Below are positions 7,045-33,996 of a stretch of 62,803 nt of DNA, piece after piece. Position numbers and translations under genes: made by a program. Position 1 is the first letter of the stretch. Each line of letters opens with the position of its first letter. The notes under the pieces were generated by a model. It saw nothing but the letters and a program-made list of their open reading frames with translations, was not told where the DNA came from and made no database searches. Source of the DNA: Embleya hyalina (GTDB lineage: Bacteria > Actinomycetota > Actinomycetes > Streptomycetales > Streptomycetaceae); NCBI RefSeq assembly GCF_003967355.1, contig NZ_BIFH01000061.1, positions 1 to 62,803 of the forward strand, in the 5' to 3' direction.

Positions 7045-8391
7045 ATGGCACAGCGTCAGTATCCGCACGAGCTGAGAATCCATACCGCTGTCGATCCCCC
7101 CGCCGCCGCCGCGTGCCTGGCCCGCTCGGCCACGTTCGGCAGCTTCGTCGTCTACGAGCGGCACGGAGTGTGGACGTTCGCCGGCGGCGGCGCCGGTGAG
7201 GTGATCCTGGATCGGGCCGGCTTTCGGGTGCGCTGGGGCGCCTACGAGCGGTTGTTGCCGGTAGGCCACGATCCCAGCCGCGACCTGGCAAAGATCATGG
7301 CCGACGCCCCCGTGGAGGACTGGAGCCTGTACGGCTGGGCCGGTTTCGAATTCGCGTACGCGCAGGCGGGCATGCGCGATCTGCTCGACGACGGGACGCT
7401 GCTGCACATGGTGGTGCCCCAGGTCGAGATCAAGATGTCGGCGAACCACGTGGTGTTGCGGGGCAGCGACCACCGACTGTTGCAGATCCTCGCCGACGTG
7501 GTGCAAAACGCGCCCGCCGACCCGTATCCCGAGCCGTCGCCGGTATCGGTCGAGGAGATCGGCGCCGACGCCTACCGGGAGGCGGTCGCCTCCGTGGTGC
7601 GCGACATCGACGACGGCAGGCTGCGCAAGGCGATCGTCTCGCGCACGGTGCCCGTCGCGTTCGATGTGGACCTGGTCGCGACCTATCTGGTGGGGCGCCG
7701 GCACAACACGCCCTCGCGCTCGTTCCTGCTGCGTCTGGGCGATCTGACGGCGGCCGGGTTCAGCCCGGAAACGGTGGTCGAGGTGGACCCGGACGGTGCG
7801 GTGCGCAGCCACCCGTTGGCCGGTACGCGCGCGTTCTTCCCCCTCGACCGGGCCCGCACCGCCCGGCTCAGGGCCGACCTGCTGGGCGATCCCAAGGAGG
7901 TGTTCGAACACGCGATCTCGGTTCAACTCGCCTGCGAGGAGTTGGCCCGGATCTGCGCTCCGGGGTCGGTGCGGGTCGAGGAGTTCATGAACGTCCTCGA
8001 ACGCGGCTCGGTCCAGCATCTGGCCTCGGCGGTGGGCGGTCGTCTGGCGGTCGGCATGGACTCCTGGGACGCGTTCGCCGCGCTGTTCCCGGCGGTGACC
8101 GCCTCCGGGATCCCCAAGCGCGCGGCGTTCGAGGCGATCCACCGGTACGAACCGGGTCCGCGGGGCCTGTACAGCGGGACGGTCCTGACCGCGGACGCGC
8201 GGGGCGGCCTGGACGCGGCGCTCGTTTTGCGGACGGTCTTCCAGCGCGACGGCCGTACCTGGCTTCAGGCGGGCGCGGGCATCGTGGCGGGCTCCACGCC
8301 GGACCGCGAACTGGAGGAGACCTGCGAGAAGATGCGCAGCGTCGCCCGGTTCCTGGTGCCCGAGTCGGCCACCGCGATGGCGGCCGGCTGA
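7045..8391 (+). CDS. salicylate synthase (MbtI/Irp9 family)
   Basis: A 448-residue chorismate-using enzyme, the usual length for single-protein salicylate synthases that turn chorismate into isochorismate and then salicylate plus pyruvate. Seen: RKAIVSRTV (with the lysine that activates water), HPLAGTRAF, EEFMNVLERGSVQHLASAV, GIPKRAAFEAI and GPRGLYSGTV, then LQAGAGIVAGSTP near the C-terminus, in the order expected for the chorismate-binding fold. The ATG at 7045 has a GAAAGGGA ribosome site. It is the only plus-strand gene of the salicylate arm and converges on the minus-strand operon at a bidirectional terminator. Its product most likely feeds the aryl-AMP ligase at 12397-13989. Confidence 0.9.
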   Translation: MAQRQYPHELRIHTAVDPPAAAACLARSATFGSFVVYERHGVWTFAGGGAGEVILDRAGFRVRWGAYERLLPVGHDPSRDLAKIMADAPVEDWSLYGWAGFEFAYAQAGMRDLLDDGTLLHMVVPQVEIKMSANHVVLRGSDHRLLQILADVVQNAPADPYPEPSPVSVEEIGADAYREAVASVVRDIDDGRLRKAIVSRTVPVAFDVDLVATYLVGRRHNTPSRSFLLRLGDLTAAGFSPETVVEVDPDGAVRSHPLAGTRAFFPLDRARTARLRADLLGDPKEVFEHAISVQLACEELARICAPGSVRVEEFMNVLERGSVQHLASAVGGRLAVGMDSWDAFAALFPAVTASGIPKRAAFEAIHRYEPGPRGLYSGTVLTADARGGLDAALVLRTVFQRDGRTWLQAGAGIVAGSTPDRELEETCEKMRSVARFLVPESATAMAAG

Positions 8392-8407
8392 ATCTCCCCG
8401 GCACGTG

Positions 8408-8444
8408 CGAAGTCCCCCGCATCGAGAGGATGCGGGGGACTTCG
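8408..8444. terminator. bidirectional hairpin terminator
   Basis: A perfect 16-bp inverted repeat (8408-8423 and 8429-8444) with a 5-base loop, 16 bp after the salicylate synthase stop and 27 bp after the stop of the converging methyltransferase gene. Confidence 0.9.
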
Positions 8445-8471
8445 CGGGTCGGGACGGGGCATGCCCGCGGA

Positions 8472-9533
8472 TCAGCCGGACGGGGCGACCGCGGTGGGAT
8501 ACGCCTCGACGACTCCGTGCGGTGTCCAGCCGCCGACGGTGATCCGGCGGTGCGCCGCGTAGCCGCACTCGTCGAGCCAGCCCTCGTAGGCCCGCCAGGG
8601 ATAGATCGTGCTGCTCTCGAAGGGGAGTGTGGTGAAGTACACCCCATCCAGGGCTGTGTACAGCGGTCCGGCGCCGTCGTCGTCGGAGAACGCGTTGAAG
8701 ATCAGCACTCGGCCGGTGGGGTCGACCGCGCGCAACGCCTTGGCCAGCAGTGCCCGGTTCTGCGGAGCGGACCAGATCACCAACTGGTGGGCAAACAACA
8801 CGCAGTCGTAGCCGAGCGGGTACTCGTCGTCGAAGATGTCGGCCGCGTGGGTGTCGATGCGATCCGTCAGGCCGGCTTCGCGAATGTTGTGTTCGGCCAC
8901 TTCGAGGGCTCCCGGGCGGTCCAGCACGGTGACCCGCAGGTGCGGGTGTGCGGTGACGAGTGCGATGGCGTTCAGGCCGCCTCCGCCGCCGATGTCCAGG
9001 ATGCGGCGGACGCCGCCGTAGTCGACGCCGTCGATCAGCACCGGGTTGGAGATTCGCGACCAGGAGTTCATCCCCTTGTAGAACAGTTCCTCCAGGCCGG
9101 GCGTACCCGCCAAGCGGCTGTACAGATCGCGGGTTCGACCCGGGAAGTGCCGCAGTCCCAGGTTCTCCCCCGCGCGCAGCGACGCGGTGTACTCGGCGGC
9201 GGGCGCGTAGGCGATCCGGGCCTGGAACTCGACGATGTCGCGCAGGTTGGTCCAGGTTCCGTCGTCGAAGGCGGCCTCCACGACGGAGGCGTTGGTGTAT
9301 CCGTCGCCCTGTTTGACGGTCAGTCGCAGCGACGTGGTGCCCAGCAGGAGCACGGCCGCCGAGCGCTCGGGCAGTTCCAGTTCCTTGGCGATCTCCTCCC
9401 GGGTGCTGCCCGGTCGTTCGTGCAGGAGTTCGGGAAGTCGCAGCTCGCAGGCCGCGTTCAGCTGCTGGAACGCGGCGTGGCCGAAGAGCAGCGGCACCAG
9501 GTCGGCCATGGTCAGGTGCGGGGTCGCGGTCAT
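8472..9533 (-). CDS. SAM-dependent O-methyltransferase
   Basis: A 353-residue class I methyltransferase of the plant-COMT/polyketide O-methyltransferase type. It has an N-terminal winged-helix dimerisation domain (about 1-100, with STREEIAKELELPE), then the SAM-binding glycine loop ILDIGGGGGLNAIAL near residue 185 and VLDRPGALEVAE. The start at 9533 has a GGAGG ribosome site. It is the last gene of the nine-gene minus-strand operon beginning at 17376. In context it probably methylates a phenol or carboxylate of the assembled product, but the position cannot be predicted. Confidence 0.85.
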   Translation of the reverse strand: MTATPHLTMADLVPLLFGHAAFQQLNAACELRLPELLHERPGSTREEIAKELELPERSAAVLLLGTTSLRLTVKQGDGYTNASVVEAAFDDGTWTNLRDIVEFQARIAYAPAAEYTASLRAGENLGLRHFPGRTRDLYSRLAGTPGLEELFYKGMNSWSRISNPVLIDGVDYGGVRRILDIGGGGGLNAIALVTAHPHLRVTVLDRPGALEVAEHNIREAGLTDRIDTHAADIFDDEYPLGYDCVLFAHQLVIWSAPQNRALLAKALRAVDPTGRVLIFNAFSDDDGAGPLYTALDGVYFTTLPFESSTIYPWRAYEGWLDECGYAAHRRITVGGWTPHGVVEAYPTAVAPSG

Positions 9534-9585
9534 GGGGTACCTCCGGTCGACGGCGGATCGAGCCTGGCGGGGCCGGGCGCACGTG

Positions 9586-10446
9586 TCACAACAGCGTGCG
9601 CACCGACCACAGTTCGGGGAAGAACCGGTGCTCGTTGATGGTGCGCAGCCAGTCCAGGCCGGTGGTGCCCCCGGTGCCCGGCTTGCCGCCGAGCATACGT
9701 TCCACCACCAGCAGATGGGTGGAGCGCCAGACCGAGAAGCGGAACGAGACGTCGCTCAGCGCCTCGGCCAGGCGGTGCTCCACGGGTCGACCCGCCGGGT
9801 CGAGGTAGATCTCCAACCACGCCTGCTCCACCAGTGGGTGCGGCTCGTGACGTCGTGTCACGTCCCGTTCCAGGAGTTCCGGGGGCAACTCCGCGCCCTG
9901 TCGGGCGAGGTATCGAATCGCCTCGTCGTACACGCTCGGCGCCTGCAACTCGGCCCGGAGCATGGGGTATCGCTCCAGCTCGGCCTTCCAGGCCCGGACC
10001 GTGTCCGGGTCCTTGTTGCCCATCGTGAACTCGAGTGCGCGGTACATGAACGACTGGGTGCCGGATGCCTCGCCCAGGATGTCGCGGAACTCCAGGAACT
10101 CGTCGGGGGCCATCGCGCTGAGCACTTCCCAGGACGTCAGCAGCGCCTGTTGGGACCGGGTCGCTCGCTGCAGATGCTCGCAGGCGACCGAGATCTCGTC
10201 CTGCCGGATCGCGGTACGGGCCTGGTCCAGTTCGATGTGGATGGTGCGGAACAGGATCTCCTTGACGTGGCTGATCAGGATGAAGGTCAGCTCGCACGGC
10301 GAATCGGTGAGCGGTCGGGCCAGTTCGTGCAGCTCGTCCATGCGCGCGTAGGACACGTACGGGGCGGGCCCGTCCCGGTCGGCACCCGCGCCGAATGGGC
10401 AGCGCGCGGGGGTCGGGACGGTGTCGGCGGCCGATCGGTCCCTCAT
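9586..10446 (-). CDS. kynA: tryptophan 2,3-dioxygenase
   Basis: A 286-residue heme dioxygenase that opens the indole ring of tryptophan to give N-formylkynurenine, step one of the kynurenine route. Family landmarks: FILISHVKEILFRTIHIELDQAR (active-site histidine region), LTSWEVLSAMAPDEFLEFRDILGEASGTQS in pieces across the middle, and near the C-terminus WRSTHLLVVERMLGG with the proximal heme histidine followed by GTGGTTGLDWLRT, which binds the amino acid. Its ATG overlaps the stop of the amidohydrolase gene. Placed with two tryptophan halogenases, it presumably accepts chlorinated tryptophan. Confidence 0.92.
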   Translation of the reverse strand: MRDRSAADTVPTPARCPFGAGADRDGPAPYVSYARMDELHELARPLTDSPCELTFILISHVKEILFRTIHIELDQARTAIRQDEISVACEHLQRATRSQQALLTSWEVLSAMAPDEFLEFRDILGEASGTQSFMYRALEFTMGNKDPDTVRAWKAELERYPMLRAELQAPSVYDEAIRYLARQGAELPPELLERDVTRRHEPHPLVEQAWLEIYLDPAGRPVEHRLAEALSDVSFRFSVWRSTHLLVVERMLGGKPGTGGTTGLDWLRTINEHRFFPELWSVRTLL

Positions 10447-11999
10447 CGAAGCCTCCTCGTCGGGTGTGCGCCACGAGCGCGGCGCAGTCGGGGGTTGTCG
10501 TCCAGAAGTGGGCGCAGCACCTTCTCGTCGATGCCCAACCGGCGGGCGGAGAACGAGTGCAAGGCGTCGAGGTAGTCCTCCAGGAGTTGCCGCTCGTCCA
10601 GCAGCTCGGCCTGCCCGGCGCGGACCAGGACGCGGCCGGCCACGATCACGGTGTCGATGTCGATGGAGCCGCCCAGGTGCAGGAACGCCTCCAGGGGGCG
10701 GGGGTTGAGCACGTAGCGCCAGTCGTCGGTGGACACCAGCACCAGGTCGGCTCGTTTGCCCGTCTCCAGGCTGCCGATCTCGTCGTCCCAGCGCAGCCCG
10801 CGCGCGGGCAGCCGGGTGGCCATGGCCAGCACGTCGGTGGGCAGTACGAAGCTCTGGTCGGCCGAGAGTTCGTTGTGCGCCTGCCAGGCCGCGCGCATGT
10901 TCTCCGCCATGCCGCCGAGCGGATAGACGACGCCGTCGGTGGACACCGACACGTCCAGACCGGCGCGGATCAGTTCGGTGATCAGCCGCGTCTCGGTCAG
11001 CGCGGATTCGCCGGTGCTGCCGTACTTGGCGGGCGAGTGGCTGATGTGCACGCGGTTGTCGATCAGCAGGGACCGCTCGTACTCGTCGGCGAACGCACAG
11101 TGCACCGCCATCAACCGGTCGTCGAGCAGACCGAGTTCGTGCAGGCGGCGCAGCGGTGTGGTGTTGAAGCACGCGCGCGTCGCCTCGTCCTCGTGCCGCA
11201 GCGCCCCCACGTGGGTGGCGAAGGTCGTGCCGTATCGCTTGACCAACTCGGCAAGCCCGCGCCCGAGTTCGTCCGACATGTTGCCCGGGTACACAGCCGT
11301 GGGCCGGCCGCGCAGCAGGCCGCTGCGGTCCTGGGCACAGCGGCGCAGCACGTCCTCCAGCGGGCCCAGTACGGCTTCCGGCTCACGGGTGCGCCGAAAG
11401 GCGTTCTCCTCGGGGACGGCGACTCCGTCGGTGGCCCAGGTGCCGAGTACGCAGCGCAGTCCGATCCGCAGTGCGGCGTCGGCGAGCGAGTGCGGCAGCG
11501 TGAACGATCCGACGTCGGCGATGGTGGTGGTGCCGGATCGCAGTTGGGTCCACAGCGAGTAGGCGGCGATCGCCTCGGCCTCGTCGGGGGCGAGTTGCCC
11601 GGCGAGGCCGTGGAACGAGTCGAACATGGTGGAGATTCGGGCCATGTCTCCACCGCAGGCCATGAATCCGGGTTCGTCGGCGTGGTCGTCGGCGGACCGC
11701 AGCGCGCCCTTGAACGGGATGCGCATCGCGTACATTTCGTGCCAGTGCGCGTTGACGAAGCCGGGCAGCACCATCATCGAGCGCGCGTCGACGGTGCGCA
11801 GGGCGGCTCGCACGGCCGGCTCGCAGGCGGCGACCGCCTCGTCGACGTCGGCGGAGGCGCCGACCGCGACGATCGTGTCGCCGACGACGAGCACCGACCC
11901 CGGGTCGTACACCCGTGCGTCGGCGGCCGCGCTGTAGACCACGCCGTCCCGGATCAACAGCCCGGTGGGCGCGGGGGCGTTCGCGCTCGCGCCGGTCAT
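10443..11999 (-). CDS. metal-dependent amidohydrolase
   Basis: A 518-residue amidohydrolase-superfamily protein of the chlorohydrolase/guanine-deaminase branch. The metal ligands are all present: NAHWHEM (HxH, after strand GFVN), FATHVGALRHED, MAVHCAFADE and SVSTDGVVY. The C-terminal GSLETGKRADLVLV is typical of the beta-sandwich domain. It overlaps the carrier-protein stop upstream and the dioxygenase start downstream by ATGA. From memory, an amidohydrolase of this superfamily closes the oxazole ring in benzoxazole clusters beside the same ligase, carrier and KSIII set. A cyclodehydration role here is therefore inferred, but the usual ortho-hydroxyl substrate is not obviously made in this cluster. 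Confidence 0.85.
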   Translation of the reverse strand: MTGASANAPAPTGLLIRDGVVYSAAADARVYDPGSVLVVGDTIVAVGASADVDEAVAACEPAVRAALRTVDARSMMVLPGFVNAHWHEMYAMRIPFKGALRSADDHADEPGFMACGGDMARISTMFDSFHGLAGQLAPDEAEAIAAYSLWTQLRSGTTTIADVGSFTLPHSLADAALRIGLRCVLGTWATDGVAVPEENAFRRTREPEAVLGPLEDVLRRCAQDRSGLLRGRPTAVYPGNMSDELGRGLAELVKRYGTTFATHVGALRHEDEATRACFNTTPLRRLHELGLLDDRLMAVHCAFADEYERSLLIDNRVHISHSPAKYGSTGESALTETRLITELIRAGLDVSVSTDGVVYPLGGMAENMRAAWQAHNELSADQSFVLPTDVLAMATRLPARGLRWDDEIGSLETGKRADLVLVSTDDWRYVLNPRPLEAFLHLGGSIDIDTVIVAGRVLVRAGQAELLDERQLLEDYLDALHSFSARRLGIDEKVLRPLLDDNPRLRRARGAHPTRRLR

Positions 12000-12313
12000 C
12001 GCCCGGCCTCGCGGTCCGCGGGGTGGGTGTCCTCGGTGGCGGCGCGCCGGGCGGCGTCGATCCTTTGCCACCAGGCGTCGAGTGTGGGTTGGGCGGCCAG
12101 GTCCTGGAACGCGACGCGCAGGCCGAGCCGACGCCATTGGTTGACCAGTCGCATCATCTCCAGTGATCCGAGTCCGAGCAGGACCAGGTTCTGGTCGCCC
12201 CGGAGGTTGTCGGGGTCGGTGCCGATCACGGCGGCGACGGTTTCCCGCAGTCGCGGTGGGGTCATTGAGTCGGCCGCCGCGTCGGCGGCATTCGGGTCGG
12301 TGCGCGGTTCCAT
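11996..12313 (-). CDS. free-standing aryl carrier protein
   Basis: A 105-residue carrier protein. The phosphopantetheine serine is Ser50 in LLGLGSLEMMRLVNQW, and the following WRRLGLRVAFQDLAAQPTLDAWW is the pattern of aryl carrier domains such as the one in EntB rather than of fatty-acid ACPs. It should carry the aryl group loaded by the ligase whose gene lies 83 bp upstream, and present it to the KSIII-like acyltransferase. The start at 12313 has a GGAAGGAAA ribosome site, and its stop overlaps the amidohydrolase start. Confidence 0.88.
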   Translation of the reverse strand: MEPRTDPNAADAAADSMTPPRLRETVAAVIGTDPDNLRGDQNLVLLGLGSLEMMRLVNQWRRLGLRVAFQDLAAQPTLDAWWQRIDAARRAATEDTHPADREAGR

Positions 12314-12396
12314 CCTCGGTTTCCTTCCTGCTGGGTGGCCCCGGGACCGGCCCGGAGGGTTTCGGGTCCGGTCCCGGGTGTCCGTCGCCGATGGGG

Positions 12397-13989
12397 TCAG
12401 GAGAACCGGGCGACCAGTGCCTTCTTGTCGACCTTGCCCAGGGGGGTGCGCGGCAGGTCGACCAGGATCTCCAGGCGATCCGGCAGCTTGTAGTCGGCCA
12501 GTCCCTCGTCCCGCAGTGCCGTGCGCAGGTCGAGCAGTTCGGGCGCGTGGCCGTGCGCGACCACGCACGCGCAGGTGCGCTCGCCGAGGATCGGGTCGGG
12601 GACCCCGATCAGTGCGACCTGGTGGACCCCCGGCAGGGCGAGCAGGTGTTCCTCGATCTCGGGTGCGGAGATCTTGTCGCCGCCGCGGATCACCACGTCC
12701 TTGATCCGGCCCTCGATCACCAGGTGACCGTCGGGGGTGCGGGTGACCACGTCCCCGGTGCGGTAGAAGCCGTCCTCGGTGAACGCCCGCTCGTTGTGTT
12801 CGGGGGCGCGGTAGTAGCCGCGCAGGGTGTACGGCCCGCGCACGAGCATCTCGCCGGCCGCGCCGGGGGCCACCGGATCGCCGTGCTCGTCGACGACCCG
12901 CACCTCGTCCGCCGGGGACAGGGGCAGGCCCTGGGTGGTGTACGCGGTCTCCTCGTCGTCGTCCTCGCGGACGTAGGACAACATGCCTTCGGCCATCCCG
13001 AAGACCTGTTGCAGTCGGCAGCCGAACGCGGGCGGGATGCGGCGGGCCGACTCCACCGGCAATTTGGCCCCGCCGACCTGGACGAAGCGCAGACTCGACA
13101 GGTCGTGTGCGGTCCACTCCGTCTCTTCCAGCCACAGATGCGCGATGGCCGGCACCAGCGAGGTGAAGGTCACCCGTTCCCGGGCGATCAGTGCGAAACA
13201 CTCGTCGGCGCCGGCGTCCGCGGCCAGCACCACCGTGCCGCCGGCGGAGAGGGTGCCGAGTACGCCGGGACATCCCCAGGGGAAGTTGAACTCGATCGGG
13301 AGCACCACGAGGTACACGTCCTGCCGGGTGAGTCGGCACAGTTCGCTGCCGGCGCGCACCTGGTAGGCGTAGTCGTCGTGGGTGCGCGGGATCAGCTTGG
13401 GCAGCGCGGTGGTTCCGCCGGAGAGCAGGAAGAAGGCGACGTCGGCCGGGTCCACACGGACCGGTTCGAGCTCACGGTCGGATGCGCCCGGGTCGGTGAA
13501 GTCGTCCGGGCCGCCCACGACCAGGATCGTGCGCAGGGTGGGTACGTCGGCCTGGATCCGCTTGGCCAGCGCCGGGTAGTCGAAGCCGACCCGGCCGTCG
13601 GGCACGATGTAGGCGGCCGCCTCGGAGATGCGGCACAGGTGCCGGATCTCGTTGCCGCGATGCGCGGCGAGGGCGAACACCGGGTGGGCGCCGAGTCGAA
13701 ACAGCGCGAAACATACGGCGACGAACTCGGGGATGTTCGGCAGGTGCACCACGACCCGGTCGCCCGCGGTGATTCCTTCGGCGTTCAGCCGGATCGCCAC
13801 CCGGTCGGCCCACAGGTCGAGTTCGCGATAGCTCAGCCGGCGTTCCCGGTGCACCAGTGCGACGCGGTCGTCGTATCGGCGCGCCCAGTCGTGCAGGAGG
13901 TCGCCCAGGGTACGGCCCTGCCAGTATCCCGATTCGCGGTAGCGTTCGGCCCATTCGTCGGGCCAGGGGGTGCAGCCGGCGAGCATCAT
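12397..13989 (-). CDS. aryl-AMP ligase, probably salicylate-specific
   Basis: A 530-residue stand-alone adenylation enzyme of the EntE/DhbE/YbtE family. LLSGGTTALPKLIPRTHDDY is the ATP loop, FGMAEGMLSYVREDD the adenine site, FYRTGDVV and GRIKDVVIRGGDKISAPEIE the hinge, and PLGKVDKKAL carries the catalytic lysine. The aryl pocket reads FNFPWGCPG. The Cys replaces the Ser found in DHB-type enzymes, which I associate with salicylate ligases, while the His of the usual HN pair is Phe. Salicylate is therefore the likeliest substrate, with some doubt. The first ATG at 13989 overlaps the stop of the KSIII gene. Confidence 0.88.
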   Translation of the reverse strand: MMLAGCTPWPDEWAERYRESGYWQGRTLGDLLHDWARRYDDRVALVHRERRLSYRELDLWADRVAIRLNAEGITAGDRVVVHLPNIPEFVAVCFALFRLGAHPVFALAAHRGNEIRHLCRISEAAAYIVPDGRVGFDYPALAKRIQADVPTLRTILVVGGPDDFTDPGASDRELEPVRVDPADVAFFLLSGGTTALPKLIPRTHDDYAYQVRAGSELCRLTRQDVYLVVLPIEFNFPWGCPGVLGTLSAGGTVVLAADAGADECFALIARERVTFTSLVPAIAHLWLEETEWTAHDLSSLRFVQVGGAKLPVESARRIPPAFGCRLQQVFGMAEGMLSYVREDDDEETAYTTQGLPLSPADEVRVVDEHGDPVAPGAAGEMLVRGPYTLRGYYRAPEHNERAFTEDGFYRTGDVVTRTPDGHLVIEGRIKDVVIRGGDKISAPEIEEHLLALPGVHQVALIGVPDPILGERTCACVVAHGHAPELLDLRTALRDEGLADYKLPDRLEILVDLPRTPLGKVDKKALVARFS

Positions 13990-15023
13990 CGGCCTCCGGC
14001 CGCGTCTTCGGTGATCCGCACGATCGCGCAGGCCACCTCGAAGCCCGGGGTGCCGCCGAGCAGGAGCACGTGGTCGCCGGTGCGCACCGCGCCGGTCGTC
14101 CAGAGGTGTTCGAGCCCCGCGACGTGGTCGGAGGGGCCGGCGTGCCCGGTGCGCCGGACGAACTCCCAGGTGCCGCGCGCCTCGTCGATCCCGATCGGGT
14201 CCAGGAAGGTGTCCCGCAGCGCGTCTTGGGCGAAGCTGACGTGGGCGACCCGGGTGATGTCGTCCATGGTGAGTTCGGCCTCGGCCACCGTCTCGCGCAC
14301 CACCTCGGCCACGAGGTCGCCGAGGTGCCCCATCGGCGGCGGACTGCCGGCGGCCCACTGTCGGGCCCAGTAGGTGCGCCGGCGTTCCAGGTCGAGCGGT
14401 TCGCCGCGCGTGATGCCCGGCGGGAACATCTGCTCGCCGCCGCGGTGCAGTTCCTCCATGCGCGGGATGGACCGGGCGCCGGTGGCCACGAGTCGGGCGA
14501 ATCCGGGTCGGGTGGACAACACGATCGCGCCGGCCCCGTCGGCGAGTACGAACAGTTTGGAGACCGTCCAGCGGTCGACCGTGGGGGTGTTGAAGTTGTC
14601 CGAGGTGGTCAGCAGGACGGCGGTCCGGCTCGGGTCGGCCAGCAGGTGGTTGGCGCCCAGTTCCAGCGATTCGATGATGCCCAGGCAACCGTGCCGGACC
14701 TCGATCGCCGAGATCGGCCGGTCTACGGTGTTGCGCACGATGTAGTGCGGCGCGGACCACACGTCCGGTCCCTGGTAGTGCACGGTGCTGTGGAACAGCT
14801 TGCAGATCTCGGCGGCCTCGTGGTCGGCCTGCTTGAGCGCCGCGTTCGCGGCGCGGATCGCCATGTCGGGGGCGGGCAGGTCGCCGGCGTCGCCGATCGA
14901 GAGCAGCCCGCTGCTCTCGCGTTCGGCCGCGGGGTAGCGGCCGGCCGCGACCGCGTCCTCGGTACTCACCCGGTCCGGCAGGTGGGTGCCGATACCGGCC
15001 AGGTGGATTCCGTCGAATCTCAT
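13986..15023 (-). CDS. KSIII-like acyltransferase (CerJ/ChlB3 type)
   Basis: A 345-residue thiolase-fold protein resembling ketosynthase III. The nucleophile is Cys113 in EVRHGCLGIIE. The FabH histidine corresponds to His261 (RVAHVSFAQD), and where FabH has the Asn of GNTS this protein has GPSD (Asp299). That Cys-His-Asp set is what I recall for KSIII-like enzymes that transfer acyl groups onto O or N instead of condensing carbon. It should move the aryl group from the carrier protein onto the second building block. The start at 15023 has a GGAGAG ribosome site. Confidence 0.85.
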   Translation of the reverse strand: MRFDGIHLAGIGTHLPDRVSTEDAVAAGRYPAAERESSGLLSIGDAGDLPAPDMAIRAANAALKQADHEAAEICKLFHSTVHYQGPDVWSAPHYIVRNTVDRPISAIEVRHGCLGIIESLELGANHLLADPSRTAVLLTTSDNFNTPTVDRWTVSKLFVLADGAGAIVLSTRPGFARLVATGARSIPRMEELHRGGEQMFPPGITRGEPLDLERRRTYWARQWAAGSPPPMGHLGDLVAEVVRETVAEAELTMDDITRVAHVSFAQDALRDTFLDPIGIDEARGTWEFVRRTGHAGPSDHVAGLEHLWTTGAVRTGDHVLLLGGTPGFEVACAIVRITEDAAGGR

Positions 15024-15045: not shown

Positions 15046-15711
15046 TTATCGGGACCGGTCGGCACGACCGGACAGGACGGGGACGGCGTGCTCGTCCGCC
15101 GCGCGCACGGCGGATGCGTACAGGCCGGCGAACCGCGGGTCGATCCGGGCGCCACTGTCGTAGTAACGGGCGTACCGGTCGCGGTAGTTGGAGAACCAGC
15201 CGGGGTGATCGTGCAGGAAGAGGATGTCGTGGAAGGCCATGTTCCTGATCGCGATCATCGGCCAGGGCGCCCGGTTGACGGGGAACAGCGGGTTGCGCGC
15301 CGCCGGGGCCCGGCAGTCCGGGTGGAACTGGCCGAGCATCAAACCCTCGGCCACCGCCCGGTCCTTGGTCGCCCGATGGCCCTCGTCGATCAGCCACCAG
15401 CCCTCCTCGGGCAGGTCGGTGACCAGCACGACGAGCGCGTGCAGTTGGGGATTGCGCGCCTTCCAGTCGATGGACCGGAACATCCGGGTGGCGTCCTCGA
15501 TCATCCGCACCATCCGGGGCAGGTGCGGCGGGCCCTCCCAGCGATGACCCACCGCGATCAGCGAATCGGCGCGCAACGAGGGTTCGACGAAGGGGCAGAC
15601 CGGGCCGTCGCGGCCCAGTTCGGGATGCGGTTGGGCGATGTAGTCGCCGAGCCAGGTGTGCAACTCCCGGTCGTGCTCGGCGTCCAGGGTGACGAACGGA
15701 TATTTCCTCAT
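15046..15711 (-). CDS. uncharacterised protein, possible DUF6875 type
   Basis: A 221-residue cytosolic protein. It starts MRKYPFVTLDAEHDRELHTW and contains GPVCPFVEPSL, ALVVLVTDLPEEGWWLIDEGHR, GQFHPDCRAPAARN and MAIRNMAFHDILFLHD. The conserved-looking Cys-Pro-Phe, His-Pro-Asp-Cys and His-Asp positions could be catalytic or metal-binding. It reminds me of proteins labelled DUF6875, but I am not certain. Its start overlaps the upstream stop by ATGA and it precedes the acyltransferase by 22 bp, so it is surely co-expressed with the assembly enzymes. The function is unknown and possibly specific to this pathway. Confidence 0.7.
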   Translation of the reverse strand: MRKYPFVTLDAEHDRELHTWLGDYIAQPHPELGRDGPVCPFVEPSLRADSLIAVGHRWEGPPHLPRMVRMIEDATRMFRSIDWKARNPQLHALVVLVTDLPEEGWWLIDEGHRATKDRAVAEGLMLGQFHPDCRAPAARNPLFPVNRAPWPMIAIRNMAFHDILFLHDHPGWFSNYRDRYARYYDSGARIDPRFAGLYASAVRAADEHAVPVLSGRADRSR

Positions 15712-16301
15712 CGGATGCCCTCGTCCCGGATCACGGAGCAGTTCGTGGCGCGAGGCGGCCAGTACGCGCCGGGCGCGGAACACCCCAGGGTGGCGGTTCG
15801 GCCGAGCGGAATCGGGTCCGCGGTGCTCGCGGAGAGCGTGCGACGGATCTGCCGGGGGGCGCCGCCGGCGCGAATGCCGCTCTCCCACGAGGGACGCGGG
15901 TACGCCGCGGTCTCCTGACGCGCGAGTTCGGCGGCGGCAGGGTCGGCGCCCGCCTGCGGTCGGCCCCGGGGCTCGGCCCAGCGCCACGTCTGGGCGTCGA
16001 GTGCGGCCCAGGCGCGCACACCCTCGGCGCCGAAGCACTGGGCGAAGTAGCCCCGGATGAGCGCCAACGCGCGCAGGCACACGCAGCGCCAACCCTCGGT
16101 GTCGGTCTCGTCGGGCTCGGGTCGGCCGTCGTCCAGTCGGGACAGGATCGCCGTCCACGCGTCGTAGCCGCCGGCGCCCAGTTGTTCGAGCGCGTTGGCC
16201 ATGCTCACTTCGGCGGCGAAGAGTCGATGCCGCCAGACCGTCGCGTCGTCGCCGTCGGTGTCGGGACCGCCGTTGCGGGGCCCCTCTGCGGGAGAGGTCA
16301 C
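15708..16301 (-). CDS. hypothetical protein of the aryl cluster operon
   Basis: A 197-residue protein I do not recognise. The GTG at 16301 lies right after the DAHP synthase stop and has a GGAAGGGG ribosome site at the proper distance, whereas the longer in-frame ATG would overlap that gene by 47 bases. The N-terminal half is helical (VWRHRLFAAEVSMANALEQLG, ALALIRGYFAQCFGAEGVRAWAALD). The C-terminal half is Pro/Gly-rich with no known motif. Translationally coupled on both sides, so it probably works with its operon partners. Confidence 0.7.
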   Translation of the reverse strand: MTSPAEGPRNGGPDTDGDDATVWRHRLFAAEVSMANALEQLGAGGYDAWTAILSRLDDGRPEPDETDTEGWRCVCLRALALIRGYFAQCFGAEGVRAWAALDAQTWRWAEPRGRPQAGADPAAAELARQETAAYPRPSWESGIRAGGAPRQIRRTLSASTADPIPLGRTATLGCSAPGAYWPPRATNCSVIRDEGIR

Positions 16302-16302
16302 A

Positions 16303-17594: not shown

Positions 17595-17772
17595 CCTTTT
17601 CAACGTCGCGCCGAGACCGGCGACAGGCGTTGGGCCAACCGCCGGCCGGCGGCGAGCACGGGCGGCACCGGCCGGCCCGGCGGCATACGACTCGACGTCG
17701 ACGAGAGCGGCCTGCCGGCCGAAGCCGGCCGGCCTCTGGCGCCGGATATCGGCTTTCAAGTAGCGTCGTGGG

Positions 17773-25109: not shown

Positions 25110-28125
<3,016 letters not shown>

Positions 28126-28220
28126 CGCGACCTTCTCTGGTCGGGGCGAGCACGGCGCCGGTGTGGACGTGGGGACCGCGGCGCGCCGCCGACGGGGGGC
28201 GGCGGGCGCGCCGCGGGGTC

Positions 28221-28772
28221 TCAGGGCTGCCCCGGCCAGGCGGCATAGCCACGCAGGCCGTACAGCAGCGGATCGGGCAGTGAGCGGTGGGCCGTGCCCA
28301 GCACTTCGCCGAAGATCACCGCGTGATCGCCGACGACGTCGTCGCGCACCACCTTGCAGTCGGCGACCCCGTGTGCGGCCTCGTCCAGATGCGGGCCGCC
28401 GGCGCCGGCGGGCAGACACCAGGGGGTGCGCGCGAACCGGTCGGGAGCGCCGGAGGCGAACAACTCGGCCGTGCTCCTGGCGTGTCCGCTCAGCAGGTTG
28501 AGCGCGAAGGTGCCGCCGGCTCGGACCGCTTCCAGCGTGGGGCTGCCCTGGCGCAGGCAGACCAGGAGGGTGGGCGGCGACAGCGTCACGCAGCTGATCG
28601 AGGTGCAGGTCATGCCCCACGGGTGGTTTCCCGCGTCGAGCGTGGTGAGCACGCCGACACCGGTGGGGAAGCCGGCCATGAAGGCTCGCAGTCGGTCCGC
28701 CCGGTCGGTCGGCTCCGCGGGGTGATCGACCCGGACGTCGTTGTGTACGTCGGCCCGGATGGAATGCGTCAC
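28221..28772 (-). CDS. flavin reductase (halogenase partner)
   Basis: A 183-residue NAD(P)H:flavin oxidoreductase of the short-chain flavin reductase family. FMAGFPTGVGVLTTLDAG, then GMTCTSISCVTLSPPTLLVCL and GTFALNLLSGHARSTAELFAS, are the FMN/FAD-binding landmarks, and DDVVGDHAVIFGEVLG is the C-terminal strand pair. It supplies free FADH2 to the two halogenases flanking it. The GTG start at 28772 has a TGGAG ribosome site, and the gene is 31 bp after halogenase 2. Confidence 0.9.
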   Translation of the reverse strand: MTHSIRADVHNDVRVDHPAEPTDRADRLRAFMAGFPTGVGVLTTLDAGNHPWGMTCTSISCVTLSPPTLLVCLRQGSPTLEAVRAGGTFALNLLSGHARSTAELFASGAPDRFARTPWCLPAGAGGPHLDEAAHGVADCKVVRDDVVGDHAVIFGEVLGTAHRSLPDPLLYGLRGYAAWPGQP

Positions 28773-28803
28773 GAATTACTCCAGAAGTCCCGGTCGAGCG
28801 AGG

Positions 28804-30393
28804 TCATTTACCGTGGAGTTGGCGCAGGAATTCGTGCGTGGTGGGCAGCTCGGCCAGCAGGTGTCGCCGCCGGGACTCGACCTCGGCGAACAGGTTCTCG
28901 ACACTTTCGATGGAGGCCGGCTTGTATTCCAGGGCGGGCAACACACGATCCGGGAGGTGGCCGAGGCCGGCGAAGATGCACCAGTAGTTCGTGTTGTTCC
29001 AGAAGTTCTTGTTGTCCACTTCGGAATTGCCGTAGTACACTCGCTCGCCGGCCTGCGAGGTGTTCACCGGGAATCCGGCCCGATACAACGAGATCTTCTC
29101 CCGGACGTCGTCGCCGAGCGGAAGCTCCTTGTTGGCCCGCCAAAACTCCGTGTCCGTGCGCGGCGAGAAGTAGAAGTGCGTCTGGATGAAGTCGCGGGTG
29201 AAGTCGAACATGCTCTCCACCTCGCGATTGAAGTGGTCGACCAGGGTCGGGTCGAAGCGCTTGTCCGGAAAGTGCTTGGCGAGTTGGTGCACCGCCGAGT
29301 AGATGAAGTAGATGCCGGTCGACTCGAGCGGTTCGACGAAGCACGAGGCGAGTCCGATGCTCACCACGTTGCGCACCCAGGCCCGGCGGTTGCGGCCGAC
29401 CCGAAAGCGTACGTGGTTGAACGGGGTGCGGTCGGGGTTCAGACCCCACAGGTCGCAGAACTCGCGCGTGGCCTCGTCCTGGCCGGTGAACTTGCTCGAG
29501 TAGACGTAGCCGGTGCCGAAGCGGGTCAGCATCGGGATCTTCCACGTCCAGCCGGAACTCATCGCGATCGCCGAGGTGAACGGCTCGACGCCGTTGGCGG
29601 CGTCGTCGTGCGGGATCGCGGTCGCCACGGCGCTGTCGCACAGCAGTTGGTCGGACATGTCCAGGAACGGCTCTTCCATCGCCTGGTTGATCAACAGGCC
29701 GCGGAAGCCCGAGCAGTCCACGAACAGGTCGCCTTCGAGGAGTCGACCCTCCTTCGTGCGCAGCGCGGTGATGTGGCCCCGCTCGTCGAGGACCGCCTCG
29801 GTCATCTCGTCCCGGACGTGCCGCACACCCTGCTTCTCGGTGGCGAACCGACGCAGGAAGTCCGCGACCAGGTTGGCGTCGAAGTGCCAGGCGTAGCCGG
29901 TGGCCTGGCTGCCGTCGCCGTAGCGCGGGCCCTTCTTGGCGTCGAGCACCTCGGCTTCGGCGAAACACGCGTAGTCGAAGGGCACGTCGGTCTCGCCCCG
30001 CAAGGTGCGCAGGTGCCAGTAGTGCGAGAGCGGGATCCCGTCGTGCTCGGGGAGGTTGGCGAAGTGATGGTAGAAGTGGTCGACGCCGCCGTGGAGTGCG
30101 CGTGGCTGTGCCGCGCCGTTGCCGGGGGTGCGCCAGTTGACGAACCGGATGCCCGCCTTGAAGCTCGCGTTGCACTCGCGCATCCATTCGTCCTCGGGAA
30201 TCCCGAGGTAGTCGAAGAACGCGGACTGCAGGTTCGGCACGGTGGCTTCGCCGACACCTATTCGGGGAATGGTGGGCGCCTCCAGGACCGTGATGTCCAC
30301 GGCACCCTGGAGGGCCTTCCCCAGATACGAGGCGGTCATCCACCCCGCCGTCCCGCCGCCGAGAACGACCAGCCTCTTGATGCGATGGTCCAC
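28804..30393 (-). CDS. flavin-dependent tryptophan halogenase, RebH-like (7-position)
   Basis: A 529-residue halogenase. GGGTAGWM at 12-19, Lys79 in [14 protein letters not shown] (same number as in RebH and PrnA), WTWKIP and EPLESTG are all present, as are [27 protein letters not shown] and [17 protein letters not shown], which match the tryptophan 7-halogenase branch. C7 chlorination is inferred. It starts with GTG at 30393 after an AAGGAGAG ribosome site. It leads the run halogenase 2, reductase, antiporter, halogenase 1, downstream of an AT-rich promoter-like stretch. Confidence 0.92.
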
Positions 30394-30412
30394 GAGTCTC
30401 TCCTTCGGCCTG

Positions 30413-30440
30413 CGGCCGCGGGGTTCGATCCCCGCGGCCG
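30413..30440. promoter_or_regulatory. GC hairpin in halogenase leader
   Basis: A perfect 11-bp stem (30413-30423 with 30430-30440) and 6-base loop, 20 bp upstream of the halogenase 2 start. Just beyond it, about 30462-30486 is the most AT-rich stretch of the intergenic space and is bracketed by CGGCTC and GAGCCG, so it may hold the halogenase operon promoter. Confidence 0.5.
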
Positions 30441-30530
30441 ACCCTGGAGAGCATCCTGTGAGACGGCTCTATATTTTTCCTATGAGCCGGCCCGGACCGA
30501 TGTGCGATCGCTCACCGACGAGGCAATCGG

Positions 30531-31766
30531 CTAACCGTAGGCGCTGGTTCGGGCGAATCGTGGATCGGTGTACTGTTTGGTTTCCGCGACTCGCCACAAG
30601 CGTTCGACGCTTTCCCGAACGTCTTGATGCGAGACATATAGCGGATGGAATCCGAAACGGAGCAGATCCGGCGGCCTACTGTCCGCGACGACGCCCTGCG
30701 GCATCAGGGCGCGAATCATCCCGTAGGCGTGTTCGTGCCGCAGCGAGACGTGCCCACCGCGTCGCTCGGCCGCACGTGGGGTGACCACCTCGAACGCCGG
30801 TTCGTCCGGTAGTTCGTCCACGCAGCGGATGAAGAACGCGGTGAGCGAGAGGCTCTTGTCGCGCAGTTGCTCGACCGCGACGTCGCGGTACACGTCCAGC
30901 GCGGCGTCCAGGGCGACCAACGACAGGATCGCGGGTGTCCCGACCACGGCCCGGGCGATGCCGGCGGCCGGCAGGTACGGGCCACCGGTGGCGAACGGGG
31001 TGACGTGTCCGAGCCAGCCGGCCAGCGGCAGGTCCAGGGCTTGGTGGTGGCGTTCGGCGGCGTACACGAAGGCCGGTGAACCGGGGCCGCCGGACAGGTA
31101 CTTGTAGGTACAGCCCACCGCCAGGTCGACGTCGTGGCGCGCCAATTCGAGCGGCAGCACGCCCACGCCGTGACAGACGTCCCACAGGACGACCGCGCCC
31201 GCGTCGTGCGCCGCCGCGGTGATGCCCGCGATGTCCCACAACTCGCCGGTGCGGTAGTCCACCACCGGGTACGCGGCCACCGCCACGTCGCGGCCGTTTC
31301 GGGCCAACCACCCGGCCGCCTCCCCCGCGGGCACCTCGACCACCCGCAGGCCCAGCAGCCTGGCCGCCGACTCGGCCATGTAGCGGTCGGTGGGAAAGTG
31401 TCGCGGATCGGTCAACAGCACCTGCCGGCCCGGCCGCAACCGGGCCGCCCCGATCAGCGTGTTGAACAACTGCACCGAGGTGGAGTCGCCCACCGCGACC
31501 TGTCCCGGGCCGACCCCGAGCAGGGCGCCGATCCGATCCCCCACCCGGGTGGGCAGTTCCATCCAGTCCACCCAGGAGCGCACCAAATCCTCGCGCCATT
31601 GTCTGTGGATGGTCTCGTGCACCGCGGGGGCGACCGAGGTCGGCAGCGGCCCGAGCGAGTTTCCGTCCAGGTAGATCAGCCCCGGCGGCAGCGCGAACCG
31701 CTCCCGGAAGCCGGCCAACACGTCCTCTGCGTCCAATCGTTCAGCGTCGGTGCGCGTCGTGGGCAT
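30531..31766 (-). CDS. kynU: kynureninase
   Basis: A 411-residue PLP enzyme that splits kynurenine into anthranilate and alanine. LIYLDGNSLGPLP near the start, VGDSTSVQLFNTLIGAA, WDVCHGVGVLPLEL (aspartate contacting PLP) and GCTYKYLSGGPGSPAF (Schiff-base lysine) are classic. It starts at 31766 inside the last 26 bases of the SARP gene, so the two are transcribed together. With the upstream enzymes it should give chlorinated anthranilate. Confidence 0.93.
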   Translation of the reverse strand: MPTTRTDAERLDAEDVLAGFRERFALPPGLIYLDGNSLGPLPTSVAPAVHETIHRQWREDLVRSWVDWMELPTRVGDRIGALLGVGPGQVAVGDSTSVQLFNTLIGAARLRPGRQVLLTDPRHFPTDRYMAESAARLLGLRVVEVPAGEAAGWLARNGRDVAVAAYPVVDYRTGELWDIAGITAAAHDAGAVVLWDVCHGVGVLPLELARHDVDLAVGCTYKYLSGGPGSPAFVYAAERHHQALDLPLAGWLGHVTPFATGGPYLPAAGIARAVVGTPAILSLVALDAALDVYRDVAVEQLRDKSLSLTAFFIRCVDELPDEPAFEVVTPRAAERRGGHVSLRHEHAYGMIRALMPQGVVADSRPPDLLRFGFHPLYVSHQDVRESVERLWRVAETKQYTDPRFARTSAYG

Positions 31767-33996
31767 GTGCCTGCCTCCGTCGATTCCGGGATGCGATGCG
31801 CGCCGCGCCCAGCGCCGGTGCGACCGGGAGCACCCGGTCCTCGGAATAGGCGCAGCGATCCAGGAAACGGGCCATGTTCTGGCCCAACTCCCAGGCGCAG
31901 GAAGATTTTCCGGCCCCTCGTGCCTGTCGGAACAGGGCGATCAGGGCGCTCTTCTCGTCCTCCAACCAGTGTTCGCCCTCACGCACGGGGGCGGCTTGCG
32001 CCGCGTACCCGCGGTGCACCCAGGCGGTCAACGCCCGGTCCAGGACGGCGGCGAGCTCCGGCGCGGTGGCCACTTCGAGGTCGGCGGCCTCGCGGCCGAA
32101 TATCCGCACCAGACGGTGCAGCCGATAGCGCGTCGTGGTCCCACCCGCGCCGGGGACGAAGGAGAGCAGTCGGGCGTCCACCAACGTCTCCAGTACGTCC
32201 TCGACCTGGTCGTGGGGCAGCCGCAGAATCTCGGCGGCGGCCCACGACGGGAAGTCGGGCACGTCCAGGTGGGAGAGCAGGCACAGGGCCCGCCGCGCGT
32301 GCGGAGCCAGCTCGCGATAGCTCTGCCGGATCCCCGATCGAACGTCCAGGTCCGAGGTGCGCAACTCGTCCAGCCGGCCGCGCTCCGCGGCCAGCCGGAC
32401 CACGAGCGAGGCCACTTGCCAGTGCGGTCTCGCGTGCAGGCGAACGGCCGCGATCCGCACCGCGAGCGGTAGACCGCCGCACAACTCGACCAGCCGGCGG
32501 GCCATTTCGCGCTCGGCCCGGATCCGGGCCTCCCCCGAGACCCGGGACAGCAGTTCCAATCCCTCGTCCATGGACAGCGGGCCCGGTTCGATCAGGCTGA
32601 CTCCGTCCAGGGCGGTCGGCGAGTGGCGACTGGTGATCAGTACCCGGCAACCGGTGGCGCCGGGTAACAGTGGTCGGATCTGGCTCTCGTCCCGCGCGTT
32701 GTCGAGCAGAATCAGCATCCGTCGGCCGGCGAGCCTGCTGCGGTAGAGCTGGACGCGTTCCTCGATCGAATCGGGGATCGCCCACTCGTCGATGCGCAGC
32801 GCGCGCAGGAACCAGCCGAGAACCTGCCTCGGATCCTTGGGACGTTCGTCGAGACCGCCGAGATCCACGTGGAGTTGACCGTCGGGGAAGACGTCCAGGC
32901 ACCGGTAGGCGGCCCGCATCGCGAGCGCGGTCTTGCCGATGCCGGCCATCCCGGTGATCGCCACCGGTCTGCTCGGCGCACGGGCCGGCCGGTGCGCGTG
33001 GTCCGACTCCCCGGAGGCCGCCGGGGCCGCCGAGCCCGCCCGCAACAGGGTCTCGATCACTCGGAGTTCGCTGTTTCGGCCGGTGAAGTCGACGATGTCG
33101 GGCGCCAGCATGGCCGGCCGCAGCCGACTCCACGCGCTGGTGGTGACCACCCGTGCGCCGGCCCCGTCCGCGGTGCGCCCGAGTGTGGGATCACCGTCCA
33201 GAATCCCCCGAAAGACGGTGTTCATCGCTTGGCCCGGGTCCACCCCGAGTTGCTCGGCCAGCACGTGCCGGCCCTGCTGGTAGATCTCCAGCGCGTCGGC
33301 CTGTCGATCGCTGCGGTACAGCGCGATCATCAGGTAGGTGCGCATGCGCTCGCGCACCGGGTGGCCCTCCACCAGTGCGGTCAACTCGGGCACGAGCCGC
33401 GCGTGCAGGCCGAGTTCCATGTCGGCCTCGATCCGGGCCTCCAGCGCCCGCATCCGTGCCTCTTCCAGCCACGGGCCGTCGTTGGCGGCCAGGAACTCGG
33501 TCACGTTCGCCAGGGCCGGGCCGCGCCACAGCCGCAAGGCGGCCGACAGATGCCGTGAGGCGTCCTCGAACCGCCGGTCGGTCAGGGCCGCTTGGCCTAC
33601 TCGGCTGAGTCGCTCGAACTCCTCGTGGTCGCAGCGGGCCGGACCCAGCGAAAGCGCGTAGCCGGGTTGGCGCCGCACGATGTAGGTACCGGCCGGGCCG
33701 AGCAGTTTGCGCAGCCGCGAGATGTACGTGTAGATCTGTGAACTCGCGGTGGCGGGCGGTCGGTCGCCCCAGAGGTAGCTGCTCATCCGAGCGTCGGACA
33801 GCACCGTCCCGTGGGCCAGGAGCAGGCCCGCCAAAGCCGTGCTGGGTTTGGTTCCGTCGAACGTGGTCTCGATTCCCCCTCTGTACATCGTCACCGGCCC
33901 GAGGATTCGAATTTCCATCCGGTCCTCGGGGTCGCATCCCGTGCTGTGCGAGATCGTCCCCGTCGTCTCGTAATAATGCTTCGAGAGATCAAGCAT
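31741..33996 (-). CDS. SARP-family activator with NB-ARC domain
   Basis: A 751-residue activator. It has an OmpR-type DNA-binding domain (MEIRILGPVTMYRGG to QPGYALSLG), an activation domain (EEFERLSRVGQ to VFRGILDG) and an NB-ARC ATPase with Walker A ITGMAGIGKTALAM and MLILLDNARDE. It lacks the long TPR tail of its partner at 21612-24995. The ATG at 33996 has a GGGGAGG ribosome site; an internal Met 26 residues on is the alternative. Codon 444 is TTA (32665-32667), so bldA-dependent translation is likely. It heads the kynureninase-halogenase side of the cluster and is its probable pathway activator. Confidence 0.88.
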   Translation of the reverse strand: MLDLSKHYYETTGTISHSTGCDPEDRMEIRILGPVTMYRGGIETTFDGTKPSTALAGLLLAHGTVLSDARMSSYLWGDRPPATASSQIYTYISRLRKLLGPAGTYIVRRQPGYALSLGPARCDHEEFERLSRVGQAALTDRRFEDASRHLSAALRLWRGPALANVTEFLAANDGPWLEEARMRALEARIEADMELGLHARLVPELTALVEGHPVRERMRTYLMIALYRSDRQADALEIYQQGRHVLAEQLGVDPGQAMNTVFRGILDGDPTLGRTADGAGARVVTTSAWSRLRPAMLAPDIVDFTGRNSELRVIETLLRAGSAAPAASGESDHAHRPARAPSRPVAITGMAGIGKTALAMRAAYRCLDVFPDGQLHVDLGGLDERPKDPRQVLGWFLRALRIDEWAIPDSIEERVQLYRSRLAGRRMLILLDNARDESQIRPLLPGATGCRVLITSRHSPTALDGVSLIEPGPLSMDEGLELLSRVSGEARIRAEREMARRLVELCGGLPLAVRIAAVRLHARPHWQVASLVVRLAAERGRLDELRTSDLDVRSGIRQSYRELAPHARRALCLLSHLDVPDFPSWAAAEILRLPHDQVEDVLETLVDARLLSFVPGAGGTTTRYRLHRLVRIFGREAADLEVATAPELAAVLDRALTAWVHRGYAAQAAPVREGEHWLEDEKSALIALFRQARGAGKSSCAWELGQNMARFLDRCAYSEDRVLPVAPALGAARIASRNRRRQAHAHDAHRR

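Follow-up and report, generated by a model that had tools for sequence, protein, structure and literature searches.

A mycemycin-type gene cluster in Embleya hyalina, with probable benzoxazole closure and a predicted source of the anthranilate 3-oxygen

What is made by a gene cluster of Embleya hyalina that couples salicylate to a chlorinated anthranilate, and has such a cluster been described before? The window analyzed here is the whole of contig C61 (NZ_BIFH01000061.1), 62,803 bp of a 12.05 Mb genome, in which an original prediction, made from the DNA letters, had placed an undescribed route to a chlorinated dianthramide. We find that the cluster is almost certainly the ortholog of the mycemycin (mym) cluster; judged by its genes it is a slightly decayed further copy of a described cluster, and so is not undescribed. 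Its value is that the published structure probably needs revision and that the step adding the oxygen can be given a place. The published mym scheme is extended here in two respects: closure of a benzoxazole ring by the product of gene D and provision of the anthranilate 3-oxygen by that of gene H, each of which is probable. For the best explanation as a whole, that is mym orthology together with the predicted steps and product set out below, we estimate a probability of about three in four.

The mym cluster of Streptomyces olivaceus FXJ8.012 (MG837055), described in 2018, has the gene order A B C D E F G H I J R1 K L R2 M N O P Q R3 (PMC5867642, Table 1). Nineteen of these 20 genes are present in the window, collinear with those of S. 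olivaceus NRRL B-3009 and 47-79% identical to them, the exception being J. (Sequences were compared with strain NRRL B-3009, whereas the published gene list is from strain FXJ8.012.) A scan of named genomes with the window's KSIII-like protein, which detects close relatives only, gave one, the same S. olivaceus NRRL B-3009 (67%). Another genome of the genus, referred to here as G400, carries the cluster at 94-99.5% identity. Because the gene order is kept in both S. olivaceus and G400, chance is excluded. Of 71 inspected neighborhoods of genes related to H (family DUF6875), only those of G400 and S. olivaceus had both D and G close to H; a third had a KSIII match alone, at 34%. In the mye cluster of another strain there are no homologs of mym genes B, H, I, L, M and R2 (PMC5867642, Table 1), and the counterparts of C and Q lie far away in the mye genome (PMC5867642).

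Genes were called by codon usage and identified with Pfam and NCBIfam profiles. Those named by the original prediction are present as long reading frames with profile matches and a high GC content at third codon positions, and the cluster stretch closes with a regulatory gene, R3. In the following list the percentages are identities to S. olivaceus NRRL B-3009.

A, 7045-8391, plus strand: salicylate synthase (chorismate to salicylate); TIGR03494 454 bits, cut-off 325; 67%.
B, 8472-9533, minus strand: SibL-type C-methyltransferase; predicted target C4 of (chloro-)3-hydroxykynurenine; SibL (4qvg) 474 bits, next 81; 76%.
C, 9586-10446, minus strand: tryptophan 2,3-dioxygenase (TDO); PF03301 163 bits; 65%.
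D, 10443-11999, minus strand: NatAM-type amidohydrolase, predicted benzoxazole synthase; 6sj0 563 bits, next 77; 66%.
E, 11996-12313, minus strand: aryl carrier protein; PF00550; 56% over 62 aa.
F, 12397-13989, minus strand: salicylate-AMP ligase, carrier-protein loading; TIGR02275 666 bits, below the cut-off of 724; 62%.
G, 13986-15023, minus strand: KSIII-like acyltransferase of the BomK/CbxB/MymG type, predicted to join salicyl and anthranilate; PF08541/PF08545; 67%.
H, 15046-15711, minus strand: DUF6875 protein, predicted tryptophan C-7 hydroxylase (anthranilate 3-oxygen); PF21780 181 bits; 64%.
Unnamed 197-aa gene between H and I, 15708-16301, minus strand: 95% identical in G400; no match in S. 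olivaceus mym.
I, 16303-17301, minus strand: 3-deoxy-D-arabino-heptulosonate 7-phosphate (DAHP) synthase, shikimate supply; TIGR01361 370 bits; 66%.
J remnant, 17600-17740 (ends approximate), minus strand: C-terminal scrap of a deleted, frameshifted carboxyl-methyltransferase gene; open J frame at the same place in G400.
R1, 17854-18783, plus strand: Lrp/AsnC regulator, whose start may be further upstream; PF13404, PF01037; 69%.
K, 18981-20516, plus strand: major facilitator superfamily exporter; TIGR00711 263 bits; 75% over the larger piece.
L, 20654-21517, minus strand: alpha/beta hydrolase, predicted kynurenine formamidase; PF20434, PF07859; 56%; beside TDO in 11 operons of the H type.
R2, 21612-24995, minus strand: Streptomyces antibiotic regulatory protein (SARP)/AfsR-type regulator; PF03704, NB-ARC; 47%.
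M, 25110-26642, minus strand: flavin halogenase, predicted tryptophan 5-halogenase; PF04820 470 bits; 2wet 752 bits; 72%.
N, 26560-28125, minus strand: Na+/H+ exchanger; PF00999 177 bits; 61%.
O, 28221-28772, minus strand: flavin reductase serving the halogenases; PF01613; 70%.
P, 28804-30393, minus strand: flavin halogenase, predicted to chlorinate the salicyl ring; PF04820 538 bits; 79%; site from the published myeP deletion.
Q, 30531-31766, minus strand: kynureninase; TIGR01814 244.4 bits, cut-off 246.4; 61%.
R3, 31741-33996, minus strand: SARP regulator; PF03704 148 bits; 49%.

Much of the original prediction is borne out by this list. Profiles identify the salicylate arm (A, F and E) and the halogenase, reductase, TDO and kynureninase genes of an arm leading from chlorotryptophan through kynurenine to anthranilate. 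The proposed coupling, which uses a carrier protein and a KSIII-like acyltransferase and involves neither a nonribosomal peptide synthetase (NRPS) nor a polyketide synthase, is retained, as is the cyclization that follows. The claim that no bacterial product of such a build had been described fails, since mym shares these genes and their order and has a known product (PMC5867642), an outcome that the original prediction had itself named as refuting it. Absent from that account were the NatAM-type amidohydrolase, the SibL-type C-methyltransferase, the DUF6875 gene and the carboxyl-methyltransferase remnant.

From gene content, gene order and the conserved catalytic residues of B and D, all of which can be read directly in the DNA, we infer the following pathway. 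M would chlorinate tryptophan at C5 and H would hydroxylate it at C7, in either order, after which C would open the ring and L would take off the formyl group. B would then methylate C4 of the resulting 3-hydroxykynurenine, and Q would free 5-chloro-3-hydroxy-4-methylanthranilate. In the other arm A would form salicylate and F would load it onto E, from which G would move the salicyl group to the anthranilate. In the manner of NatAM, D would remove water and so close the oxazole ring, and P with O would chlorinate the salicyl ring para to the ring oxygen. The predicted product is 6-chloro-2-(5-chloro-2-hydroxyphenyl)-7-methyl-1,3-benzoxazole-4-carboxylic acid (C15H9Cl2NO4, [M+H]+ 337.998), or its amide.

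Does D close a benzoxazole, or is the published dibenzoxazepinone correct? In the published scheme D is the N-formylkynurenine amidohydrolase, G forms an amide, and a cytochrome P450 encoded elsewhere makes a diaryl ether. Published structures and a pathway proposal (PMC5867642) speak for it, and deletion of myeD or myeG abolishes the products (PMC5867642), a result that fits either role of D. The sequence of D points the other way. NatAM forms a benzoxazole by removal of water, and of its 17 published active-site residues (PMC7204872) D has 15, the zinc ligands included; H75, H77, H253, H290, K315, E321 and D345 are all kept, and the two differences are F84 to I and R87 to K. A formamidase role for D was rejected because this active site is kept and because the hydrolase found together with TDO in the 11 related operons is of the L type and not of the D type. 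The profile gives L only as an alpha/beta hydrolase, so that the formamidase which the original prediction had named is assigned by gene order. The cluster contains no P450 according to PMC5867642, and we saw neither a P450 nor another diaryl-ether-forming oxidase among the window cluster genes scanned, the rest of the genome lying outside that scan.

Published data on the compounds can be read in the same sense. Mycemycin A is C15H11NO4 ([M+H]+ 270.08), and the nominal mass reported for O-methylcaboxamycin is also 270 (PMC5481532). When the listed 13C shifts of mycemycin A for the carboxylate-ring carbons, C1, the ester carbonyl and the methoxy group were set against those of a methyl benzoxazole-4-carboxylate (compound 6, PMC9864271), both in CDCl3, the mean difference over nine carbons was 0.67 ppm (maximum 2.4), a comparison of one ring with one other compound. 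There is an ultraviolet maximum at 332 nm, and no infrared band is listed between 1634 and 1716. In mycemycin C the signal at 11.65 ppm was taken for an amide NH, placed by its correlation to C12 (119.1 ppm); C6, at 119.3 ppm, is only 0.2 ppm away, and is where a phenol OH would be expected to correlate. The signal could alternatively come from a hydrogen-bonded phenol OH, which is typical of hydroxyphenyl-benzoxazoles. Because formula, 13C shifts, ultraviolet and infrared data and the relationship of D all agree, we think it likely that the mycemycins are benzoxazoles rather than dibenzoxazepinones, and the published scheme appears unlikely to be right. We found no statement that the mycemycins are benzoxazoles in the part of the mycemycin literature that was searched, subscription journals being largely outside it.

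Both structures, benzoxazole and dibenzoxazepinone, require an oxygen on C3 of the anthranilate. Where does it come from? The methyltransferase B constrains the answer. It retains 12 of 13 named SibL residues (Y99 is F); SibL puts a methyl group on C4 of 3-hydroxykynurenine and rejects 3-hydroxyanthranilate as a substrate, and the methyl group of mycemycin C sits on the carbon that a SibL-type enzyme methylates. B should therefore act on a ring that already has the 3-oxygen. The C7 of tryptophan is the later C3 of kynurenine and of anthranilate. H is singled out because, among the mym genes without a mye homolog, it is the only one without an assigned role. Consistent with this, the mye strain, which lacks H, when fed 5-chlorotryptophan gave a product assigned by mass and ultraviolet spectrum as unhydroxylated 5-chloroanthranilate (PMC5867642). 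DUF6875 proteins are reported to be heme proteins that include tryptophan C-7 hydroxylases (a preprint with 'cytochrome P422' in its title, cited in PMC13307353), and deletion of the DUF6875 gene zigI gave a product without its methoxy group (PMC13307353). We conclude that H is very probably the source of the 3-oxygen, and that it probably acts at the tryptophan rather than the kynurenine stage. The plain anthranilate of the original prediction would thus be replaced, the SibL-type methyltransferase and the DUF6875 gene implying the 3-hydroxy-4-methyl form.

An alternative is that a flavin-dependent kynurenine monooxygenase encoded elsewhere in the genome supplies the oxygen and that H is employed otherwise, for instance in dimerization, as has been guessed for acnF of the actinomycin cluster. 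The genome has 66 matches to FAD_binding_3 (a family-level count), the actinomycin authors put the kynurenine monooxygenase outside the acn cluster (PMC6521150), and mye manages without H (PMC5867642). Set against these are the reported activity of DUF6875 proteins, the role still vacant for H, the product of the feeding experiment, and the failure to find, beside the cluster in either G400 or S. olivaceus, the flavin adenine dinucleotide (FAD) monooxygenase gene that adjoins it in the window (3115-4266). We regard this alternative as quite improbable.

Nine residues of H (W20, R34, G36, C39, P40, G123, R156, D162 and F165) are identical in all 72 DUF6875 sequences. In an hhalign comparison of 33 DUF6875 sequences with the thiolate-heme YqcI/YcgG family (AglA Cys44) the cysteines align, weakly (P 0.0065, probability 5.8%); with 72 sequences this match was the best of nine comparisons and still weak (P 0.0015, probability 16.7%; eight unrelated families gave 0.0095-0.84). 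A sequence search of solved structures returned no relative for H, and none for a YqcI/YcgG protein either. A reading of H as a previously undescribed kynurenine 3-hydroxylase related to YqcI/YcgG was dropped, since DUF6875 had already been reported as a family of heme proteins that includes tryptophan C-7 hydroxylases.

What company do DUF6875 genes keep? The family is present in 3 of 396 genomes of the phylum and 67 of 394 of the bacterial family. The 71 neighborhoods comprise 69 places with E ≤ 4.1e-28 (the window excluded) and two from the phylum search; one place at 1.6e-26 with an internal stop was left out, as were weaker ones. G400 counts with two loci, the cluster itself (L065) and another DUF6875 gene (L132), its second cluster half without H (L066) being dropped. 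A TDO gene, detected by tblastn using just the window protein as query, is no more than 10 kb away in 18 of the 71 neighborhoods. All 18 belong to the 38 neighborhoods whose DUF6875 protein is at least 39.5% identical to H; in the other 33 no TDO was seen at that distance. We estimate the chance level of such proximity at about one in a hundred or less, a figure derived from the TDO loci per genome (mostly one to four, often reported in two pieces) rather than from a run control. Besides the cluster, 11 loci hold TDO, formamidase-type, kynureninase and C-methyltransferase genes with H, in the order H-L-C-Q-B in 10 cases. Upstream scans of four of these loci (L067, L068, L074, L075) each showed H preceded by the thioesterase end of an NRPS; on the downstream side one gene was scanned in each of two of them, giving a P450 gene (L068) and a TetR regulator gene (L075). 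The actinomycin cluster has this layout too, as acnN3-acnF-acnG-acnH-acnL-acnM-acnP (PMC6521150). Its acnF (211 aa) is essential and was guessed to act in dimerization, and its authors report no kynurenine 3-monooxygenase gene in the cluster (PMC6521150). A tryptophan C-7 hydroxylase would explain both observations, and the link between DUF6875 and actinomycin may already be in the 'cytochrome P422' preprint.

Other DUF6875 genes stand elsewhere. Second copies (L103, L104, L106, L107, L111, L112, L114, L115 and L117) occur in nine genomes, all nine of which also have an H-L-C-Q-B operon; in the two genomes with both on one contig the second copy is about 24 kb from the operon, a position that resembles that of the non-essential acnU3. 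At L116 and L122 a DUF6875 gene close to H is beside hemerythrin-like, aminotransferase and desaturase-like genes, and no kynurenine genes were found there; this context suggests that the family probably has other substrates.

Which carbons would carry the chlorines? The best solved relative of M is a tryptophan 5-halogenase (2wet, 752 bits); those of P are a tryptophan 6-halogenase (7aqu, 872 bits) and RebH (841 bits). It counts for the original prediction that both halogenases are nearest to tryptophan halogenases, and that two such enzymes can work in series, as they do for kutzneride; both would then act on tryptophan, to give 3,5-dichloroanthranilate and with salicylate an undescribed chlorinated dianthramide. 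This is very unlikely. The cluster corresponds to mym gene by gene, and in the dichloro products of mym, mycemycins C and E, each of the two rings bears a single chlorine (for E this is known from mass spectrometry only). Deletion of myeP takes from mycemycin B the salicyl-ring chlorine only and leaves mycemycin A (PMC5867642). Anthranilate C3, where the second chlorine would sit (tryptophan C7), carries an oxygen in the known products, and relatives of D need that oxygen. B, finally, is by its residues a 3-hydroxykynurenine C-methyltransferase. The myeP product is 75% identical to MymP (PMC5867642, Table 1), and the window P is 79% identical to that of S. olivaceus. The stretch around the conserved NFW of P departs from the 6-halogenase in the window and in S. 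olivaceus alike, a change that fits an altered substrate but is no proof of one. That the product has one chlorine per ring is thus quite likely.

Several points weigh against the account given here, in which P chlorinates the salicyl ring, D closes a benzoxazole and H oxygenates tryptophan. The product and the enzyme activities are predicted here from sequence and published data. Taken by themselves, the relatives of P would suggest tryptophan as its substrate; since P is most like tryptophan 6-/7-halogenases, its predicted site is taken from a myeP deletion made in a different strain. Two groups arrived at the dibenzoxazepinone structure, and the 13C comparison is a narrow one. With regard to H, the mye products have the 3-oxygen yet Table 1 shows no H homolog, so another oxygen source must exist in mye. 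The statement on tryptophan C-7 is second-hand, through the citing paper PMC13307353. Predicted structures of H are poor (mean predicted local distance difference test score 55.8 for the window protein and 53.1 for that of S. olivaceus), and Foldseek with the window model, poor as it is, gave no match at E ≤ 0.001. No TDO was seen in 53 of the 71 neighborhoods, or near 20 of the 38 close loci, nine of these being the second copies described above. In two Streptomyces plasmids (L145, L147) the DUF6875 gene directly follows an annotated histidine decarboxylase gene, with ATP-grasp and trpA-annotated genes nearby, and no TDO is annotated in the three plasmid neighborhoods read (of 60 records matched). 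The misses do not prove absence, because 29 of the 71 stretches are shorter than the full 19.5 kb; one such locus (L100) has kynureninase and formamidase genes and no TDO.

In mym, J is a carboxyl-methyltransferase gene between I and R1 (PMC5867642). G400 retains an open J frame (43.6% identical to S. olivaceus J), whereas the window lacks about 0.87 kb at this place (863 bases between the two matches, 6 shared), and the leftover C-terminal scrap is split across two frames. Since the scrap has decayed, an assembly error is unlikely. With J deleted no cluster enzyme would methylate the carboxyl group, and the methyl ester of mycemycin C is not to be expected from this cluster.

The 197-aa gene beside H has no Pfam match at an E-value of 10 and none in S. 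olivaceus mym; it is matched in 22 of 150 genomes, at about 24-42% identity outside the window and G400 copies. M and N overlap by 83 bases in different frames (26560-26642, minus strand). Adjoining the cluster, 3115-5020 holds the divergent FAD monooxygenase gene (3115-4266; its match to a Tet(X)-like profile is far below the cut-off) and a TetR regulator gene; the pair was rejected as pathway genes, not being found beside the cluster in G400 or S. olivaceus. Further along, a 42-aa frame (42289-42417, minus strand) resembles a lasso-peptide precursor, with by our reading a Gly1-Asp8 ring and Thr at -2. Near it on the same strand are a PqqD-type gene (40977-41288) and a short gene (41234-42139) that matches only the C-terminal part of asparagine synthase, so that 40977-42417 (minus strand) may be what is left of a lasso-peptide cluster.

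Should D close a benzoxazole, the structures of a published class (the mycemycins and demethylmycemycin A) would have to be revised and the class would become part of the caboxamycin family. Should H be a tryptophan C-7 hydroxylase, both here and as AcnF, a recently described enzyme family would fill the step to which the mycemycin and actinomycin papers assign no gene, and the order of the pathway steps would change.

How, finally, does the cluster compare with known systems? Set against known clusters, as the original prediction had advised, it matches mym, and differs from it in having only a remnant of J, an extra 197-aa gene between H and I, and a host in another genus of the same family. 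Its coupling cassette is of the caboxamycin type: salicylate synthase, KSIII, AMP ligase, carrier protein and amidohydrolase genes are together, and the order G-F-E-D is that of cbxB-C-D-E (PMC5481532). The caboxamycin authors report that cbxABCDE in S. albus yield benzoxazoles, and they hold cbxBCDE to be sufficient. There 3-hydroxyanthranilate comes from chorismate (cbxFGHI), whereas the window has tryptophan-kynurenine genes instead, a predicted ring that is chlorinated and methylated, and a DAHP synthase of a class different from the cbx one. The amidohydrolase is of the NatAM type: D is 56% identical to NatAM of nataxazole (PDB 6sj0-6sj4) over the 408 residues compared, with a common zinc site and proton shuttle, but nataxazole has a NatL2-type ester-forming ligase and none was recognized in the window cluster. 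B is 63% identical to SibL of sibiromycin (4qvg) over 337 residues; unlike that of SibL, its substrate here is probably chlorinated. H shares its Pfam domain and a tryptophan-derived pathway with the DUF6875 heme proteins, ZigI included, and is set beside them by domain and not by member sequence. With actinomycin the cluster has in common the 4-methyl-3-hydroxyanthranilate set (a gene of acnF size, formamidase, TDO, kynureninase and methyltransferase), AcnF being matched to H by place and size, not sequence; the actinomycin anthranilate goes into an NRPS. Joining these comparisons, we put at even odds the combined proposal that the mycemycins belong with the caboxamycin-type benzoxazoles, in chlorinated and methylated form and with a NatAM-type enzyme closing the ring, and not with the dibenzoxazepinones, and that a DUF6875 heme enzyme puts the 3-oxygen of the mycemycins and, through AcnF, of the actinomycin chromophore onto C7 of tryptophan while the ring is still closed, which would make a kynurenine 3-monooxygenase needless in both.

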